DNA of 21,437 bases, taken from the IMG/VR virus record IMGVR_UViG_3300030101_001427, positions 1 through 21,437 of that record; one strand, given 5' to 3'. The translations under genes and the position numbers were made by a program. Origin of the DNA: a virus. Positions 5,795-12,061 of the stretch are shown here, piece after piece (the first letter of the stretch is position 1; each line of letters begins with the position of its first letter). The notes under the pieces are model-generated. The model was not told the DNA's origin, did no database searches, and saw nothing but the letters and a program-made list of their open reading frames with translations.

Positions 5795-6253
5795 TTAGAC
5801 TTCATGCCATTCTTTACCATCAAATAATAATGCCTCTGCCTCTCTTCTTCTTACTAAACCCTGTAAAACTTTTCCGCCTGCTTTGTTCCATCTTTTTATT
5901 TGTGTAGGTATGTCGTTCCAGTCTTTATGCGTACTATTTAATACTTTTAATAATGTAGAGCTTTTTAAATTAGCTGGCCCAAGATTAAACACCCATGATA
6001 CCAAAGCATCAAATTCGTTTTGTTTTAAATTGACCTCAACCAAGTCATTTATATAACCTTCGTATTCTTCCATTTCGTTTAATAACAATTCATCGGCTTC
6101 TTCTTGGGTAATAGTATCACCTTCTTTTACACCCTTAGTTGAGCCATAACCTATTGTTAAAACATTAGCTGCACAACGATAAGCCTCTAGCTCACAACCC
6201 TCAAACTTTTTAATAAGAGATAAACCCTCTTGTGATATTTTCATATCACTCAT
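5795..6253 (-). CDS. Endolysin, GH24 (T4-type) lysozyme
   Basis: A 152-aa muramidase that cleaves peptidoglycan at the end of infection. The N-terminal catalytic region has the GH24 layout: Glu in K-K-F-E-G (about residue 17), Cys in Y-R-C, and Thr in L-T-I-G-Y-G. This is the E-8aa-D/C-5aa-T triad with Cys in the Asp position, as in P21-like enzymes. Further family marks are F-D-A-L-V-S-W-V-F-N-L-G in the middle and G-L-V-R-R-R-E-A-E near the end. I chose ATG at 6251-6253, which overlaps the holin stop (ATGAGTGA); a second ATG lies 9 bp on. No signal-arrest-release segment is seen, so export across the inner membrane should depend on the upstream holin. Length is typical. Confidence 0.92.
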   Translation of the reverse strand: MSDMKISQEGLSLIKKFEGCELEAYRCAANVLTIGYGSTKGVKEGDTITQEEADELLLNEMEEYEGYINDLVEVNLKQNEFDALVSWVFNLGPANLKSSTLLKVLNSTHKDWNDIPTQIKRWNKAGGKVLQGLVRRREAEALLFDGKEWHEV

Positions 6254-6725
6254 TTTTGTCGCTGGAGTGAGATGCTCCAAAATAGAACGAAATAATTGCA
6301 CTTGCTAATCCTCCAAGATAACCAAGCACTAAATTAATTAGTGCCTCGCTGTTCTGTTCTGGTGGTTGTAATGTTACTAGAAATATATAACCAAGAAAGC
6401 CGCCTATGGTAGCAATACCAATAATTCTTGCAGTCCAGTCTTTGCTAAACATACCTCTAGCGTGTTGTTTGTCTTGTGCTTCTAATTGAAAAACATCAAC
6501 ATCAAGTTTTTTCATTTGCGTTTCAAACTCTTGTTCTGCTTTCTTTAGCTCCATCATTTGCTCTGGAGTTGCGTTTTGTATTGCTTGTTGTACGGATTTT
6601 TGATCGTTAGACACGCCTAGCACTTCTGCTATCTTACCCATTGCCATGCCACCTAAAGGGCCACCCATAGCTGAACCAATGGTAGGAGCTACAGCTCCGA
6701 CTATGTTTTTTAAAATATTCTTCAT
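6246..6725 (-). CDS. Holin, 3TM family
   Basis: A 159-aa inner-membrane protein placed directly before the endolysin. The N-terminal part is Gly/Ala-rich (A-P-T-I-G-S-A-M-G-G-P-L-G-G-M-A) and followed by a charged helix with P-E-Q-M-M-E-L-K-K-A-E-Q-E-F-E. The C-terminal half has two hydrophobic helices (about 99-117 and 128-148) joined by a short polar loop. This order matches the 3TM holin family, in which the amphipathic N-terminus counts as the third segment. It should form the membrane lesion that releases the endolysin. Its ATG overlaps the stop of the XhlA-like gene (ATGA) and its stop overlaps the endolysin start, so all three are translationally coupled. Confidence 0.85.
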   Translation of the reverse strand: MKNILKNIVGAVAPTIGSAMGGPLGGMAMGKIAEVLGVSNDQKSVQQAIQNATPEQMMELKKAEQEFETQMKKLDVDVFQLEAQDKQHARGMFSKDWTARIIGIATIGGFLGYIFLVTLQPPEQNSEALINLVLGYLGGLASAIISFYFGASHSSDKNE

Positions 6726-6934
6726 AAAACGACTGTGATTACCGCGATAGATAAAGCACCAATAAAACCAAAGACACCAAAGGTTGCCATCTTAATAGTA
6801 TTGTTGATTGCTGCTATTTCTTGTTTTATATCTGCAAACTCATTAAAGGCTGTTTTCCACCTTTCTTCGTTTTCTTTTTTAGAAACTGCTAGGTCGGCTG
6901 CGACATCACTTGCTGTTATTTTTTTTGTAGTCAT
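6722..6934 (-). CDS. XhlA-like small membrane protein (lysis accessory)
   Basis: A 70-aa protein with a charged, coiled-coil-like N-terminal part (K-K-E-N-E-E-R-W-K-T-A-F-N-E-F, then I-K-Q-E-I-A-A-I-N-N-T-I) and one C-terminal membrane helix of about 20 residues (residues 50-70). This is the layout of the XhlA haemolysin/holin-partner family. It is co-translated with the 3TM holin through an ATGA overlap and is itself joined by ATGA to the end of the cyclase gene. The context supports a role in timing or assembling the holin lesion. The sequence is too short and plain to be certain of family membership. Confidence 0.65.
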   Translation of the reverse strand: MTTKKITASDVAADLAVSKKENEERWKTAFNEFADIKQEIAAINNTIKMATFGVFGFIGALSIAVITVVL

Positions 6935-8673
6935 GCGTTTGTATAGATTTTTAAATATTTACTTTTGCCCTTAACTTTTATCGGTCTTAGTGATTTTAAC
7001 TCAAAATCACAATTTTTTGCAGTATTTTCACCAATTAGTATATCAACGCCAACATCTTTAGTTGCTGACTCTAATCTTGCTGCGGTGTTTACACAATCAC
7101 CAATAGCTGAATAATCAAACCTAGTATTACTACCCATGTTGCCAATTACAGCTTCGCCAGTATTTACACCTATACCAATTTTTAATGGTATGTTTGTTAC
7201 TTGCATATCTTCTTGTATTTTTAATGCTGCTAGTATTGCTTGGTTTTGGTGATCTGGTAAATCTATAGGTGCATTAAATATTGCCATCATTGCATCGCCT
7301 ATATATTTATCAACCATGCCACCATATTGTTGAACTGCGTTAGATTGAATTGTTAATGCCTGGTTCATTAGTTCAGTAACTTGTTCTGGTTGTAATCTTT
7401 CTGACAAAGAAGTAAAACCTCTGACATCTGTAAATAAAAATGTTGCTTCTTTTTTCTCGCCACCAAGTTTTAATAAACTAGGATTATCTTGTAATTGTTT
7501 TACTTGGCGTGGATCAAGATAATGTTCAAACTGTTTTTTTATCTCTTGGCGTAATTTATATTGTTTTTGATAGTTTAGATAGAAAGAAATGGTCGAAGTT
7601 ATGATTTGTGATACAAAAGTCCATGAAAAATCAATTAAAACACCCTTTTGGATGCTAAAAACTCCTGAGATGCCCGTGGTGAGCAAGATAATTCCAAATA
7701 TACTTGCACCCTTAACTACATTAAAATAATTGATTGTGAGCCATGTCAGAGACACAAAAATCAGTAAAATCAAAATTTCGGCTGCTAAGTGCCAATCTGG
7801 TATATGAGGAGAGTTTTGTATCAAGATTGACTCAGCTAATGCTGCTTGGATCTTGTGTGGTTCTAATAAACCAACTGGAGTTGCAATCTGTGGCATGACT
7901 CCGTTGGCCGTTACGCCTACAAAAACAAACTTACCATTTACATTCATTTCTTGTAATGTGGTTTGCTCAGTATTAACCCAACTAATCCATTTACGACCAA
8001 GGCTATCTGTCTTAACTGGTGGTATTCCTCTTATTGATATTTCTGATATACCACTATCATTAGTTTTTATAATGTAAGTTTTTACATTAAACAACGATTT
8101 ATATATTTGTGTACCAAAACTAGGAATCCAATCTTTGTTGGGTGTTTTGACTAAAAGAGGTATTTTACGAACCAGTTGGTCTACATCTGTGGGAGCAATA
8201 GCTAAACCAGATAGCGTGTTGTTTGCTAACAGAGGAAGGTTTTGTTTTACTCCCGAACTAAGTATACCACCATTATTATTACCCATAACAACTGTGCCAG
8301 GCGATGCAGGATAATTACCTTTGCCATCTTCAAACATAGCTATAACAGATGGTGCGTAACCAAGTGCTTCTGCAAACATTTTATCACCGCCCATACGATC
8401 TGCTTGCGGAAAAGATACAACCCAACCAATGCCTATTGCACCCTTGTTTAGTAAGTCTATTTGTATTTCTGCTAGTCTTTGTCTAGGTAATGGCCAACCG
8501 CCTTTTCGTTCTACATCTTCTTCTGTTATGTTAAGTATGACAAAGTTACCAGATGGTTCTGGTGTTTTGATAAAAGTGTCATACACCTTTAGTTTTAGTA
8601 TTTCTGTAGGAGTGCTTTGAAAAAGCAAAGGTAAACTTAGTATTATAAGTAATGGTAATAATAGTTTGTTCAT
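6931..8673 (-). CDS. CHASE2-domain adenylate cyclase (class III)
   Basis: A 580-aa transmembrane sensor that should make cAMP from ATP. Residues 1-19 are a signal-anchor helix. Residues about 30-290 form the extracytoplasmic CHASE2 domain (Y-D-T-F opening, I-T-E-E-D-V, G-W-P-L-P-R, V-F-V-G-V-T). Three membrane helices lie at about 296-316, 323-342 and 347-366, and a class III cyclase domain occupies about 405-578. The active site looks complete: metal-binding Asp416 (F-T-D-V-R-G-F-T) and Asp460 (K-Y-I-G-D), adenine-selecting Lys456 and Asp520 (R-F-D-Y-S-A-I-G-D), and transition-state Asn529 and Arg533 (V-N-T-A-A-R). Lys/Asp rather than Glu/Cys argues for adenylate over guanylate cyclase. Its ATG directly abuts the stop of the FecR gene, and its stop overlaps the XhlA-like gene. 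CHASE2 cyclases are usually bacterial; one in a phage late operon is very unusual. Confidence 0.93.
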   Translation of the reverse strand: MNKLLLPLLIILSLPLLFQSTPTEILKLKVYDTFIKTPEPSGNFVILNITEEDVERKGGWPLPRQRLAEIQIDLLNKGAIGIGWVVSFPQADRMGGDKMFAEALGYAPSVIAMFEDGKGNYPASPGTVVMGNNNGGILSSGVKQNLPLLANNTLSGLAIAPTDVDQLVRKIPLLVKTPNKDWIPSFGTQIYKSLFNVKTYIIKTNDSGISEISIRGIPPVKTDSLGRKWISWVNTEQTTLQEMNVNGKFVFVGVTANGVMPQIATPVGLLEPHKIQAALAESILIQNSPHIPDWHLAAEILILLIFVSLTWLTINYFNVVKGASIFGIILLTTGISGVFSIQKGVLIDFSWTFVSQIITSTISFYLNYQKQYKLRQEIKKQFEHYLDPRQVKQLQDNPSLLKLGGEKKEATFLFTDVRGFTSLSERLQPEQVTELMNQALTIQSNAVQQYGGMVDKYIGDAMMAIFNAPIDLPDHQNQAILAALKIQEDMQVTNIPLKIGIGVNTGEAVIGNMGSNTRFDYSAIGDCVNTAARLESATKDVGVDILIGENTAKNCDFELKSLRPIKVKGKSKYLKIYTNA

Positions 8674-9792
8674 TTAATTACTTTGAGTGATAGTGATAAC
8701 ACTATCGCTGCCTCCGTTGACTTTAATTATATTAGATACGCCATCTTGTATCAAAATGACCGTGTAAGCATCGCTACCGTTTAAGTCTAACCTCACGCTT
8801 TCATTTACATTTCTACGCAGACTTACAACATTACCAGTTATAAGTGCTGTTATCTGTGTGTCAGGATCTTTACCCAACAAAGTACCAGCTATTTGTGTGC
8901 TGGTAGCTTGTGCTAATTGATCTTCCTCATCTTCTACAGCTAACGCATCTAACACGTTCAATAAGTCCTCCAGGTAATTTACATCAAGGTAATTTATGTC
9001 TAGTTCTGTAAATTCTAAACTATCTTCTTTCAAATAGTCCTCTGCAAGATAGTCTATGTCTAAATCATTAAAATCTAACACGCTATCTGTTTGTGTTGTC
9101 GTAGCCTCTTCTTCTATAACCACATCTTCTTTGGGTGGTGTAACAATAAGCATATTGTCTATAAGGTCTAGGGTTAGGTCTAAGATTACTGGTTTGGTTG
9201 GTGTTGATTCAAACACGCTTACGGTTGTAGCTTCGTAGGGTTTGTTTAGCGTTACTGTTCCCATACCCGTGGTTACTAATATTTCGCCACTAGATAGACC
9301 ATATTTATCAGGCAAAAGAATAATTAGACTACGACCAAGCTCATCAACGGTTGCAGTAAAGTCAGTACCACGAATAGCTATGTTTGCTGTAGGTGTTTTT
9401 AGTGTAATGTTTTGCTTATCTATGCGGTTTAGATTACCAGTAATAAACCTGGCTGTACCAAGTCCAAAGGTAAGTGCCATCTTTGCTTTGCTTGGGTCTG
9501 GATCGTAGATGTATTCATCTATTAGCAGTTCTGAAAACTCTGTTAGTTTTACAACAGAATCATCTAAAAAGGTAATAGCCATGCGGCCATCTTTGGTTAT
9601 CGCCTCATCATTGCTTTGTATAGCAAAATCAAGATCAGCATTGTAGGTTTTGTCTCTGACTATTTGAGCCGAACCGTTTAGCTCAGATATGTCGCCAATA
9701 TTAGCAGCTTGTGCTTGTACCTTGGTCGTTTTGGATAACGCAAACAGTAGAAGCAGCAGTACCAGAAACGGATATGATTTTGAGCCAGTCAT
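8674..9792 (-). CDS. Periplasmic FecR-domain protein with a curlin-like C-terminal tail
   Basis: A 372-aa exported protein. Residues 1-27 are a clear Sec signal peptide with cleavage after V-Q-A. The FecR-like beta domain spans about 33-185 and includes the family hallmark T-P-T-A-N-I-A-I-R-G-T-D-F (133-145). Unlike anti-sigma FecR proteins, it has no N-terminal cytoplasmic helix and no internal membrane helix. Residues 240-290 are an acidic repeat of D-I-(D/N)-Y-L units. Residues 337-372 carry N-G-S-D, I-Q-D-G-V-S-N and N-G-G-S-D, then I-T-I-T-Q, matching the curlin signature Q-x-G-x2-N. The gene overlaps the curlin-like gene by 92 bp and abuts the CHASE2 cyclase with no spacing. FecR-CHASE2 cyclase pairs are a known bacterial arrangement, so it probably acts as the ligand-binding partner of that sensor. 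Confidence 0.88.
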   Translation of the reverse strand: MTGSKSYPFLVLLLLLFALSKTTKVQAQAANIGDISELNGSAQIVRDKTYNADLDFAIQSNDEAITKDGRMAITFLDDSVVKLTEFSELLIDEYIYDPDPSKAKMALTFGLGTARFITGNLNRIDKQNITLKTPTANIAIRGTDFTATVDELGRSLIILLPDKYGLSSGEILVTTGMGTVTLNKPYEATTVSVFESTPTKPVILDLTLDLIDNMLIVTPPKEDVVIEEEATTTQTDSVLDFNDLDIDYLAEDYLKEDSLEFTELDINYLDVNYLEDLLNVLDALAVEDEEDQLAQATSTQIAGTLLGKDPDTQITALITGNVVSLRRNVNESVRLDLNGSDAYTVILIQDGVSNIIKVNGGSDSVITITQSN

Positions 9793-10426
9793 TATCTTGT
9801 GTACTTAGTTGTGAAATATTAAAAGTTCTTGAACCACCAGTATGGTCTAACCAAAAATATCCACCTGCTGAGGCATTAACACCTGTACCTGTATAAGTTA
9901 CTGTATTATCAGAACCATCTATATCCATGTAGTTAGTAGCACCATCAATATTTATATTTGATGTAACTGTGTTATTTGAACCATTAATAATCCAATCTAA
10001 GTCAAGTGATGCAGCCAATGCTGTTGTGCCTTGATTTAATGTAAATGTATTACCACTACCTGTGACATCAACATTTTGGTTTGAACCATCAGCACTATAG
10101 GTATCTGTAGGATCTACTTGAATAGTAAATGAGTTAGTTCCGCCATCAAACTCGTAGAAACCTGTAAATGTGTCAGCAAATATATCACCAAGAAACTTGT
10201 TAGTTGCACCAATCATATTGATGTCAAGTGTCATAGTATTACCATCTAAATCAAATGCGTTTACACTACCTGCTGTAGAGTTTAGACCACCAATAATATT
10301 AGATATACCAAGCTGTTCTAGGTCTATGTTTGCACCCGTACCAGATTGATCTACGTATATTTCGTTATCAGCCGCGTATGTTGTCAATGCAGTCAGCATC
10401 ACAATCAGGCTTATTAATTTCTTCAT
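9701..10426 (-). CDS. Secreted curlin-like (CsgA-like) repeat protein
   Basis: A 241-aa protein, likely the substrate of the adjacent CsgG pore. Residues 1-18 are a signal peptide (M-K-K-L-I-S-L-I-V-M start, cleavage after T-Y-A). The mature N-terminus contains V-D-Q-S-G-T-G-A-N and Q-L-G-I-S-N (Q37-x-G39-x2-N42), the spacing seen in curlin repeats. Further on there are degenerate units with D-G-N-T, G-G-T-N, G-S-G-N-T, G-S-N-N-T and G-S-D-N-T followed by Thr/Val strands, as in an Asn/Gly/Ser-rich beta-solenoid. It has no long hydrophobic segment and only two Cys, both near the end. It overlaps csgG by 59 bp and the FecR gene by 92 bp. The match to CsgA is in pattern and context rather than close sequence, so amyloid formation is predicted, not shown. 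Confidence 0.72.
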   Translation of the reverse strand: MKKLISLIVMLTALTTYAADNEIYVDQSGTGANIDLEQLGISNIIGGLNSTAGSVNAFDLDGNTMTLDINMIGATNKFLGDIFADTFTGFYEFDGGTNSFTIQVDPTDTYSADGSNQNVDVTGSGNTFTLNQGTTALAASLDLDWIINGSNNTVTSNINIDGATNYMDIDGSDNTVTYTGTGVNASAGGYFWLDHTGGSRTFNISQLSTQDNDWLKIISVSGTAASTVCVIQNDQGTSTSC

Positions 10427-11267
10427 TATCTAATTTTACTCCCTCATTATTGTTTTGTAAAACCCAGAAACCTCGTTCATAACCAGACTTAACTATTTCT
10501 AACACACCGCCCTCAATCGCTTTCATTAGTGCTATAGTTGATGATTCGTTTCTTGCGTTTCCTAGTTCTATTTCCACTAGCTCGGTATTAGCCTCAATAA
10601 ACCTAAATACATCCTCTGATTTACCATAGCTAAATATGGTCTTTTGACTCAGCACTTCTAATAACACCTCGCCCGTAGCTACAGAAACCATACGTAGACT
10701 TACGGTTATATTATCTTCTCTGTATTGTACGCTGTTACCTATGCCTAGGTATCTAGCTCCAATACCGCCAGATTCTAAGTTAGCTTCGTAAGATATAACA
10801 GCTCCTTCTATTAAAATGCCAGCAAACAACAAAGGTCTTAGTGCTTTCTTTTTCTCTTCTTCAGTTGCGGTTTGCTCTCTTGCAGATCTTATTAGTTGTC
10901 GTTCTTTGGTAAGGTTATCTAATCCGACTCGTTCAACCACCCTAAAAAACTTTCCGTTACCAGCGTGTTTTAAGGCTCGTATAAGTAGTGCGTTTGGCTG
11001 TTGGGTTATGGCTGTACTAAATAAAGCAAACTCACTATTACTTTTTCTTTGACCAGTTTGGTCTGTAAAAGCGGTTGGATATACAGCAACCACAGGACTA
11101 GCTTGTGGTATGGGTACATTTTTAAGTTCTACTGATTGTAGGTCTTGTATTGATACTATGTCTTTGCTTGAAAATCTTTGTGCGTAAGTATCTTCGTACT
11201 GGTCAAATATAGAACAGCTAGAAAGTAAAAGTACCAATAGGTATTGTAATTTCTGTAACTGTGCCAT
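10368..11267 (-). CDS. csgG: CsgG, curli secretion channel lipoprotein
   Basis: A 299-aa outer-membrane lipoprotein that should form the nonameric curli export pore. The signal peptide ends in a lipobox L-S-S-C with lipidated Cys18. The family core is very clear: A-V-Y-x-x-x-F-T-D-Q-T-G-Q near 61-72, F-S-T-A-I near 83-87, R-L-I-R-S-A-R-like helix near 125-130 (R-Q-L-I-R-S-A-R), G-A-R-Y-L-G-I-G at 170-177, V-A-T-G-E-V-L-x-x-V at 196-205 and K-T-I-F-S-Y at 209-214. It ends with a helix containing M-K-A-I-E-G-G-V and E-R-G-F-W. Compared with the E. coli pore, the constriction aligns F83 with Phe56, but the Tyr51 and Asn55 positions appear to be Ser78 and Leu82. A short acidic tail with two Cys extends past the usual end. 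It overlaps csgF by 50 bp. I regard the identification as secure. Confidence 0.95.
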   Translation of the reverse strand: MAQLQKLQYLLVLLLSSCSIFDQYEDTYAQRFSSKDIVSIQDLQSVELKNVPIPQASPVVAVYPTAFTDQTGQRKSNSEFALFSTAITQQPNALLIRALKHAGNGKFFRVVERVGLDNLTKERQLIRSAREQTATEEEKKKALRPLLFAGILIEGAVISYEANLESGGIGARYLGIGNSVQYREDNITVSLRMVSVATGEVLLEVLSQKTIFSYGKSEDVFRFIEANTELVEIELGNARNESSTIALMKAIEGGVLEIVKSGYERGFWVLQNNNEGVKLDNEEINKPDCDADCIDNIRG

Positions 11268-11730
11268 CTGCTTCTGTTATTTTAAGAGTTAATGTTACAC
11301 CATCGCTAGTGTATTCTATGGTGTTGCCTTCTAGGGTTATTGTACCTGAACTTTGCGGTGTTTCTCCAAACAGATTATTAACCAGTTGCCTGGATAGTTC
11401 TGCATAGACTCTTGATTCTAGGTTACGCATGAACCTTGCAAGTGTAGAGTTTTCTTTTTCTCTTTCTATTTCATCTTGTAAGGCTTTGATTTCTTCTTTA
11501 ATCGTTAGCTTACGACTAAACTCTTGGTTTTCTATAGTTAGATAGTGTGAGCTAGTACTTACGCCATTAAAACTTGGCGATTTAAACTTGTGTACTATTT
11601 GATCTGCTTTTACATTTATAGCAATAACGCCTAAAAACATAATTAAACCCATGAACATAATCCAAATTAATATTCTGGTTTTTGCAGCTTCTTCCTGCAT
11701 TTGTTTTTTGCTAATCTTTCCTTTGGTCAT
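11218..11730 (-). CDS. csgF: CsgF, curli secretion accessory protein
   Basis: A 170-aa exported protein that should dock into the CsgG pore. The N-terminus has 19 mostly charged residues, a hydrophobic helix at about 20-40, then V-K-A before residue 43, which fits a signal peptidase site; the n-region is unusually long. The mature start I-V-H-K-F-K-S-P-S-F-N-G aligns with the CsgG-binding F-x-F-x-N-P-N-F-G-G segment of E. coli CsgF. A helical neck (76-122, K-E-E-I-K-A-L-Q-D-E-I-E-R) is longer than in E. coli. The C-terminal beta region (129-166, ending T-E-I-T-I-P) matches the family head domain. It overlaps csgG by 50 bp and the upstream membrane protein gene by 20 bp. The CsgF-CsgG order supports the call. 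Confidence 0.9.
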   Translation of the reverse strand: MTKGKISKKQMQEEAAKTRILIWIMFMGLIMFLGVIAINVKADQIVHKFKSPSFNGVSTSSHYLTIENQEFSRKLTIKEEIKALQDEIEREKENSTLARFMRNLESRVYAELSRQLVNNLFGETPQSSGTITLEGNTIEYTSDGVTLTLKITEADGTVTEITIPIGTFTF

Positions 11731-12061
11731 CTCTGTCCGCCTTTGCTAACCTGTCGGTGTGCATAAGTTGTGGTACACCAAGTATAGTCTTTAGCAGAGT
11801 ATCTTGTCTAATTATCTCGTTGTCTACAGATCTAACTCTATCTATAAGAGCAACTAAAATACCGTGTTGTGAGTCTAGTTTTTGACCTAGTCGTTGTTCT
11901 ATTTCTGATATTTGTGCGCTGACTTTTTCATCAAGTACATCTACTTTGGTTTCCATACCATCAATAATTTTGTTGATTAGTTTCCAGATAAATAAACCAA
12001 GACCTATAGCTGCTGCTATCGGAAAACCGACTTCGTTTATTAAAGTTACTGCTGATTCCAC
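11711..12061 (-). CDS. Membrane protein with coiled coil, holin-like
   Basis: A 116-aa protein with one N-terminal membrane helix (about residues 12-33, G-F-P-I-A-A-A-I-G-L-G-L-F-I-W) followed by a long heptad-rich coiled coil (E-T-K-V-D-V-L-D-E-K-V-S-A-Q-I-S-E-I-E). The layout resembles small phage holin-like proteins (BhlA type), but I see no decisive motif. The start appears to be GTG at 12059-12061, because no ATG lies in the frame before the membrane helix. The nearest ribosome site, GGGGAG, is about 14 bp upstream, farther than usual. It follows the nuclease gene by 6 bp and overlaps csgF by 20 bp. It could be a third lysis protein or an inner-membrane partner of the curli cassette. Confidence 0.62.
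   Translation of the reverse strand: MESAVTLINEVGFPIAAAIGLGLFIWKLINKIIDGMETKVDVLDEKVSAQISEIEQRLGQKLDSQHGILVALIDRVRSVDNEIIRQDTLLKTILGVPQLMHTDRLAKADRDDQRKD

Follow-up and report, generated by a model that had tools for sequence, protein, structure and literature searches.

Curli secretion modules of pelagiphages, comprising csgF, csgG, csgA/B, fecR and a cyclase gene, were described in 2022 (PMC9599517), and parts of the module are described in PMC7029224 and PMC9004378. In the accessible portions of these papers FecR is treated as a regulator of iron or of curli; FecR and the cyclase are regarded as regulatory additions, and a csgC or csgE homologue is not reported for the phage modules (PMC9599517). 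The fibre subunits themselves, the curlins, follow the kernel N-x-h-x-h-x-Q-x-G-x-x-N-x-h-x-h-x-Q-x-G, and the described ones have at least four repeats (PMC10192328). For the presence in phages of curli secretion genes absent from their presumed hosts, explanations from aggregation to lysis timing have been put forward.

The periplasmic FecR-domain fold is known from the FecR/PupR anti-sigma proteins of cell-surface signalling, in which the PupR signalling domain reports on an outer-membrane transporter. Genes for a secreted FecR protein and a CHASE2 signalling enzyme are found side by side in the Burkholderia BiofilmReg biofilm operon, which encodes a LysM-FecR protein with a CHASE2 histidine kinase (PMC5192318), and in a cAMP cluster of Campylobacterota, which consists of a FecR protein, a TPR protein, a CHASE2 cyclase and a phosphodiesterase (PMC9239204). 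These two systems differ from the locus analysed here in that they have no curli, and no curlin-like tail has been described for them.

The curli module of the window

The DNA analysed (the window) is an IMG/VR virus record of 21,437 bases, belonging to a marine phage. It carries terminase, portal and major capsid genes, whose best matches among named phages are below 50% identity, and the following curli module:

11218..11730, minus strand: csgF (PF10614, 62 bits)
10368..11267, minus strand: csgG, encoding the curli outer-membrane channel CsgG (PF03783, 157 bits)
9701..10426, minus strand: curlin-like secreted protein (CsgA1-type), an ORF of 241 amino acids (weak PF07012 match, E 0.57)
8674..9792, minus strand: fecR, 372 amino acids, with a Sec signal peptide without lipobox (PF04773, 35.8 bits; phrog_37870 over the full length, 7e-66)
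6931..8673, minus strand: CHASE2 - class III adenylate/guanylate cyclase (PF05226, 97.5 bits, and PF00211, 77.1 bits)

CsgG, CsgF, curlin, FecR and CHASE2 cyclase are thus all present in the expected order, with the gene for a secreted FecR protein adjoining that for a CHASE2 enzyme; gene set and gene order are identical to those of the published pelagiphage module as far as the accessible text of PMC9599517 describes it. The start codon of the cyclase follows immediately after the stop codon of fecR, and no csgC or csgE homologue was seen in the window's module. The curlin-like neighbour of FecR is homologous to the curlin-associated protein of HTVC008M (29% identity, 3e-7) and is predicted to be all-beta with regular short strands (pLDDT 79.8); a Foldseek search of its model against the PDB gave nothing at E≤0.001. 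In viral loci a curlin gene adjoins this FecR family wherever the upstream neighbour is visible, and the CHASE2 cyclase is adjacent to FecR in 80 loci of the window's type. Pelagimyophage-type loci have a second curlin gene, placed between fecR and the cyclase gene; loci of the window's type lack it.

The operon is already published; the FecR tail described below and a tail-based coupling to the cyclase are not described in the literature searched. The accessible portions of PMC9599517, PMC7029224 and PMC9004378 contain no mention of a curlin-like FecR end, and no paper naming both 'curlin repeat' and 'FecR domain' was found in the open-licence literature. A conserved tail of fibre-like character on the one component with a genetic tie to a cyclase would offer a specific and testable way of connecting fibre export with second-messenger signalling.

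The C-terminal tail domain of FecR

The FecR protein of the window is composed of the following parts:

9709..9792, minus strand: signal peptide, residues 1-28 (assigned by eye), a hydrophobic leader ending VQA-QA; helix 7-20 in the model
9340..9597, minus strand: FecR domain PF04773, residues 66-151, inside a confident fold of about residues 30-215 (pLDDT about 70-92)
8785..9150, minus strand: acidic linker, residues 215-336, rich in D-L-D-x-L (pLDDT below 50 over 215-337; one predicted helix, 271-288)
8677..8886, minus strand: C-terminal tail domain, residues 303-372, delimited by alignments; the tail HMM finds the Caulobacteraceae FecR at 2e-19
8731..8748, minus strand: Q349-D-G-V-S-N354, a curlin-type Q-x-G-x2-N found in the window-type clade only
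8677..8703, minus strand: C-terminal curlin-type half-repeat S-V-I-T-I-T-Q-S-N, residues 364-372

The FecR domain scores 35.8 bits against a cut-off of 24, and the solved structures closest to the folded region are the PupR signalling domain 6ovk (Z 15.2, rmsd 2.8, 135 residues aligned) and the anti-sigma structures 4m0h/4m0n (Z 14.1). The protein begins with a signal peptide and its folded FecR region starts at about residue 30; it therefore has no N-terminal cytoplasmic anti-sigma part with transmembrane helix as in the FecI-FecR systems. In contrast to the FecR/PupR proteins it is secreted and is encoded next to a CHASE2 cyclase. Searching PDB sequences with profiles of FecR and of curlin gave nothing significant. 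In the AlphaFold2 model the tail forms strands at residues 343-349, 352-358 and 366-371, with a pLDDT of only 40-50, that is, poorly predicted.

Positions 8674-8784 (minus strand) encode residues 337-372 and the stop codon: L337-N-G-S-D-A-Y-T-V-I-L-I-Q349-D-G351-V-S-N354-I-I-K-V-N-G-G-S-D-S-V-I-T-I-T-Q-S-N372. The two NG(G)SD units and the curlin-type hexapeptide that the first-pass annotation had read here are present. The counterpart that it had placed in the curlin-like neighbour, QLGISN, exists as well, at residues 38-43 of the 241-residue ORF (Q38-N43, positions 10298-10315) rather than at 37-42; Q38, G40 and N43 are near-invariant in the alignment of the curlin-like protein. By chance, a QxGxxN motif is expected about 0.05 times per shuffled FecR (9.35 over 181 proteins, versus 101 seen).

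Compared with the curlin kernel (PMC10192328), residues 343-358 contain h3, h5, Q7, G9, N12, h14 and h16; N1 is replaced by Y343 and Q18 is missing. The second half-repeat is S-V-I-T-I-T-Q. The tail thus comprises 1.5 degenerate repeats with a Q-to-Q spacing of 21, as against at least four repeats of about 23 residues in curlins, and in the terms of that paper it is at best an a-b-a stretch. It shares with E. coli CsgA and CsgB the Q-x-G-x2-N with alternating hydrophobic residues and, with CsgB, the C-terminal half-repeat, but these at most 1.5 repeats follow a FecR domain and a linker, and the Pfam curlin model (PF07012) is silent: no match was obtained at E≤10 with FecR, with the tail alone or with full-length FecRs.

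Further comparisons place the tail above chance. The first-pass annotation had let its proposal depend on a curlin-profile score better than that of shuffled sequence of the same composition, and the tail does score higher. It reached 5.5 bits with an HMM of E. coli CsgA/B (p=0.0105, 2000 shuffles) and 9.1 bits (p=0.0075, 2000 shuffles) with an HMM of phage and Caulobacteraceae curlins, which was built from segments picked for Q-x-G-x2-N and so favours the window's tail. These scores exceed those of all 275 other viral C-termini and of 303 windows from other parts of the module. A profile of the tail family aligned to two curlin alignments with scores of 20.1 and 22.6; column shuffles averaged 10.5-10.7 (±1.9) and 0 of 300 reached the observed values. 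Column shuffles destroy strand alternation, so that the reversed tail profile (9.7 and 11.2) and beta-rich controls provide the better comparison, and these scored lower as well, with maxima of 15.9 and 16.4 in another 92 control windows, TbpB-type and Slam barrels among them. The tail ranked first among the module windows in the profile-profile comparison, and the only non-tail windows with comparable scores were signal-peptide regions. The profile signal was weaker when the tails were split by clade, and shuffles then occasionally exceeded it.

When full-length FecR and curlin alignments were compared with hhalign without guidance, the best match joined the two C-termini (325-377 to 172-229 of 236; P 0.009, probability 4.5%); for the tail versus curlin the hhalign probability was only 4-9%. 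The pattern h.h.Q.{1,2}-COOH ends 96 of 99 distinct FecRs and 129 of 239 curlins, compared with 9 of 2524 other ORFs (phylogenetically redundant counts). An HMM of the C-termini of myophage CsgA, however, matched the FecR tail with a p of about 0.05 and in a different register, and 12-residue look-alikes at the stop codon are thus by themselves no proof of homology. Overall, the tail is weakly curlin-like, above chance; judged from these comparisons it is probably related to, or convergent on, the end-repeat of curlins, and it is not a curlin.

The window's FecR has at least 594 relatives in IMG/VR. In 72 sequences of its own clade, for which we use the name window-type clade, Q349, D350, G351, S353 and N354 are invariant despite synonymous codon changes (CAA/CAG; GGT/GGC/GGA/GGG; TCT/TCA/TCC; AAT/AAC). 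Tail residues 303-372 have a dN/dS (ratio of means) of 0.055, as low as in the FecR domain (0.057) and lower than in the less conserved linker (0.092); the tail is under purifying selection as strong as that on the FecR domain. HTVC008M, Melnitz and their relatives keep Y343, Q349 and Q370 but not G351 and N354. In two Caulobacteraceae MAGs (L185 and L186, close relatives from one sampling series that count as a single independent case) bacterial genes surround csgF-csgG-csgA-csgA-fecR-cyclase, whose FecR ends VSVNGGGTVINVTQD; the phrog_37870 alignment to these FecRs reaches position 381/382. With the two MAGs added, Q370 is invariant and G361 and Q349 are nearly so, and Q-x-G-x2-N is absent from the myophage and Caulobacteraceae tails. 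As the tail is homologous in phages and Caulobacteraceae, the alignments indicate that the domain of about 70 residues is ancestral and also cellular, occurring in pelagimyophages and Caulobacteraceae MAGs; the ancestral part is this C-terminal domain ending in a curlin-type half-repeat, x-I-x-I-x-Q, which also ends many curlins.

The terminal motif of the tail was found in 0 of 73 FecRs away from curli genes, and with the tail HMM no match to these 73 was obtained at E≤10. A curli-specific branch of the FecR proteins has the tail as its C-terminal domain. The tie between FecR tail and fibre drawn by the first-pass annotation therefore holds in so far as the tail is curlin-like above shuffles and occurs in FecRs of curli operons only, while the Q-x-G-x2-N on which it had been founded turns out to be a clade-specific refinement. 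An origin of the tail as the fused remnant of a missing second curlin gene was rejected, as the tail and a separate second curlin gene occur together in myophages.

An assignment of the window-type clade to podophages was also rejected: among 14 virus records with a related FecR, the window's terminase occurs only on the contig of L002. Nine contigs of 30-63 kb (L045, L035, L046, L058, L051, L022, L049, L027 and L012) have FecRs 84-90% identical to that of the window and no recognisable homologue of its terminase, although the contigs are possibly incomplete; on the long window-type contigs neither a phrog_2 terminase nor gp23 was seen. The curli module may move between phage backgrounds.

FecR-CHASE2 pairs and possible roles of the tail

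In many bacteria without curli, fecR lies directly before a CHASE2 cyclase gene. Five such loci (L209, L216, L224, L240 and L242), from Alphaproteobacteria, Deltaproteobacteria, an unplaced Proteobacteria MAG and Planctomycetota, have a gene for a TPR plus outer-membrane-barrel protein upstream of the pair. The cut-off of the Pfam Slam family (PF04575) is passed in three of the five, L209 falls just short, and in L240 no more than TPR and a generic barrel is recognised. Each of the five FecRs has a Slam-cargo-type barrel at its C-terminus, assigned to TbpB_B_D in four loci and to Slam-dependent lipoprotein in L240 (NCBIfam). The survey was small and drawn from the best-scoring CHASE2 matches rather than at random. 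At 10 further Alphaproteobacterial loci a weaker Slam-like gene adjoins fecR, and the FecR ends scanned there have no recognisable barrel; a strict rule that every exporter-linked FecR has a cargo-like C-terminus was thus rejected. Another class pairs LysM-FecR with CHASE2 with no Slam-like gene nearby; the Burkholderia biofilm operon (PMC5192318) is an example of this class. No paper naming FecR together with DUF560 and TbpB was found in the open-licence literature. Overall, FecR-CHASE2 is a recurring, putative sensor pair, often beside outer-membrane export, with a cargo-like FecR end in two kinds of loci.

The first-pass annotation had offered two roles for the tail, a CsgB-like nucleator of the fibre and a periplasmic sensor of unexported subunits that reports to the cyclase. 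We tentatively favour the sensor over the nucleator, with a probability somewhat short of even. By pairing of edge strands, the tail would contact curlin subunits not yet assembled, or the route that they take through CsgG/CsgF. The FecR domain would remain periplasmic and relay the status of export to CHASE2 of the neighbouring cyclase, and this enzyme would then alter cyclic AMP during infection. The FecR C-terminus would adapt FecR-CHASE2, as a reusable sensor pair, to different outer-membrane exporters (curli in the phages; Slam in the other loci). We infer the signalling between FecR and CHASE2, and the contact of the tail with curlin or its export path, from what is known of FecR/PupR and from the pattern of FecR-CHASE2 pairs beside exporters. 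The sensor gains support from comparative genomics, because FecR and CHASE2 cyclase are paired even without curli and often beside another outer-membrane exporter. The five Slam-like loci, the PupR fold match and the FecR-CHASE2 clusters in biofilm and cAMP contexts (PMC5192318, PMC9239204) point in the same direction, as do the above-chance likeness of the tail, the shared terminal half-repeat, the restriction of the tail to curli operons, its purifying selection, the unguided joining of the C-termini and the homologous tail in the Caulobacteraceae operon. Against it stand the weak curlin likeness, the low pLDDT of the tail, the loss of G351 and N354 outside the window-type clade, the Slam-like genes beside barrel-less FecRs, and the LysM-FecR/CHASE2 pairs without a Slam-like exporter.

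That the curlin pattern is coincidental appears unlikely, though it carries appreciable weight: the tail would be a common type of small beta domain, with alternating strands and Gly/Asn turns that happen to look like curlin, and FecR would respond to another signal such as iron or the state of the envelope, in line with the interpretation published for the module. This would fit with the silence of Pfam on curlin repeats in the tail, with a single-sequence p of only about 0.01 and with subgroup tails that stand less clearly above their own shuffles. It fits less well with the lower scores of the reversed tail and of beta-rich profiles (FecR domain, Slam, TbpB-type barrels), with a best full-length FecR-curlin alignment that joins the C-termini, and with the confinement of the tail to curli operons. 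A nucleator or anchor of the CsgB kind, in which the linker of about 120 residues would thread CsgG, the FecR domain would act as a periplasmic plug and the exposed tail would seed or tether the fibre, we consider quite improbable. The linker is indeed predicted to be disordered, and the tail end is similar to the final repeat of E. coli CsgB (...MAIRVTQR). The window-type clade has no second curlin gene like that of the myophages, and it has the more curlin-like tail. However, at most 1.5 degenerate repeats compare with at least four in described curlins (PMC10192328), the Caulobacteraceae and myophage operons already hold two curlins beside the same FecR, and no exporter signal was identified in FecR. 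Residues 29-122 of the AlphaFold2 model also match the cell-surface anchoring domain 5ix9 (Z 7.0, rmsd 2.3, 72 of 76 residues), but a match at this Z may reflect only a common arrangement. With so few repeats, and separate curlin genes already in the ancestral operons, the nucleator is left without specific support. Least probable, and very much so, is a periplasmic holdase that would keep curlin unassembled before export in place of the missing CsgC/CsgE; the lack of csgC and csgE in the window's module and in the accessible account of the phage modules (PMC9599517) agrees with this role, but it does not account for the constant pairing with the CHASE2 cyclase, which is seen whether or not curli are present.

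The favoured sensor reading could be extended to a general one, which we regard as doubtful: FecR-CHASE2 pairs would be sensors of outer-membrane export in which the FecR C-terminus imitates the cargo of the neighbouring exporter (a curlin half-repeat where that is CsgG, a TbpB-type barrel where it is Slam) and cargo or channel occupancy is converted into cyclic AMP, marine phages carrying the curli version. The Slam parallel would give the bacterial FecR-CHASE2 clusters a candidate function. A separate observation is a Rhodospirillales protein of 1681 residues (L191, 5641-10683) in which a FecR domain is joined to RTX calcium-binding repeats, a further FecR whose C-terminal half is cargo-like.

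Neighbouring genes and minor observations

The last 92 bases of the curlin-like gene (9701-9792) overlap, in a different frame, with the signal-peptide region of fecR, and the same overlap is seen in listed window-type relatives (e.g. L045, L058 and L027). Directly beside the curli module, at 5795-6725, are lysis-type genes (judged by eye, a lysozyme-like ORF and a holin-like one), and in L022 and L027 the module adjoins spanin-like pairs; this proximity is relevant to the published proposal of a role for phage curli pores in lysis timing. A small ORF just before csgF (11711-12061) appears to consist of a single membrane helix and a coiled coil. A histidine kinase is said to open the published module; Pfam found no kinase domain in the small ORF, which may or may not be the same gene. 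An ORF of 219 residues at 554-1213, without a PHROG match, is built of imperfect repeats of the type ATSNVTATGTQIDRG and is possibly a virion fibre or decoration protein. In the second curlin gene of HTVC008M (L083, 6025-7347) a PA14 domain is followed by fused curlin repeats, a fusion that suggests a sugar-binding or adhesive head on one subunit of the phage fibre.
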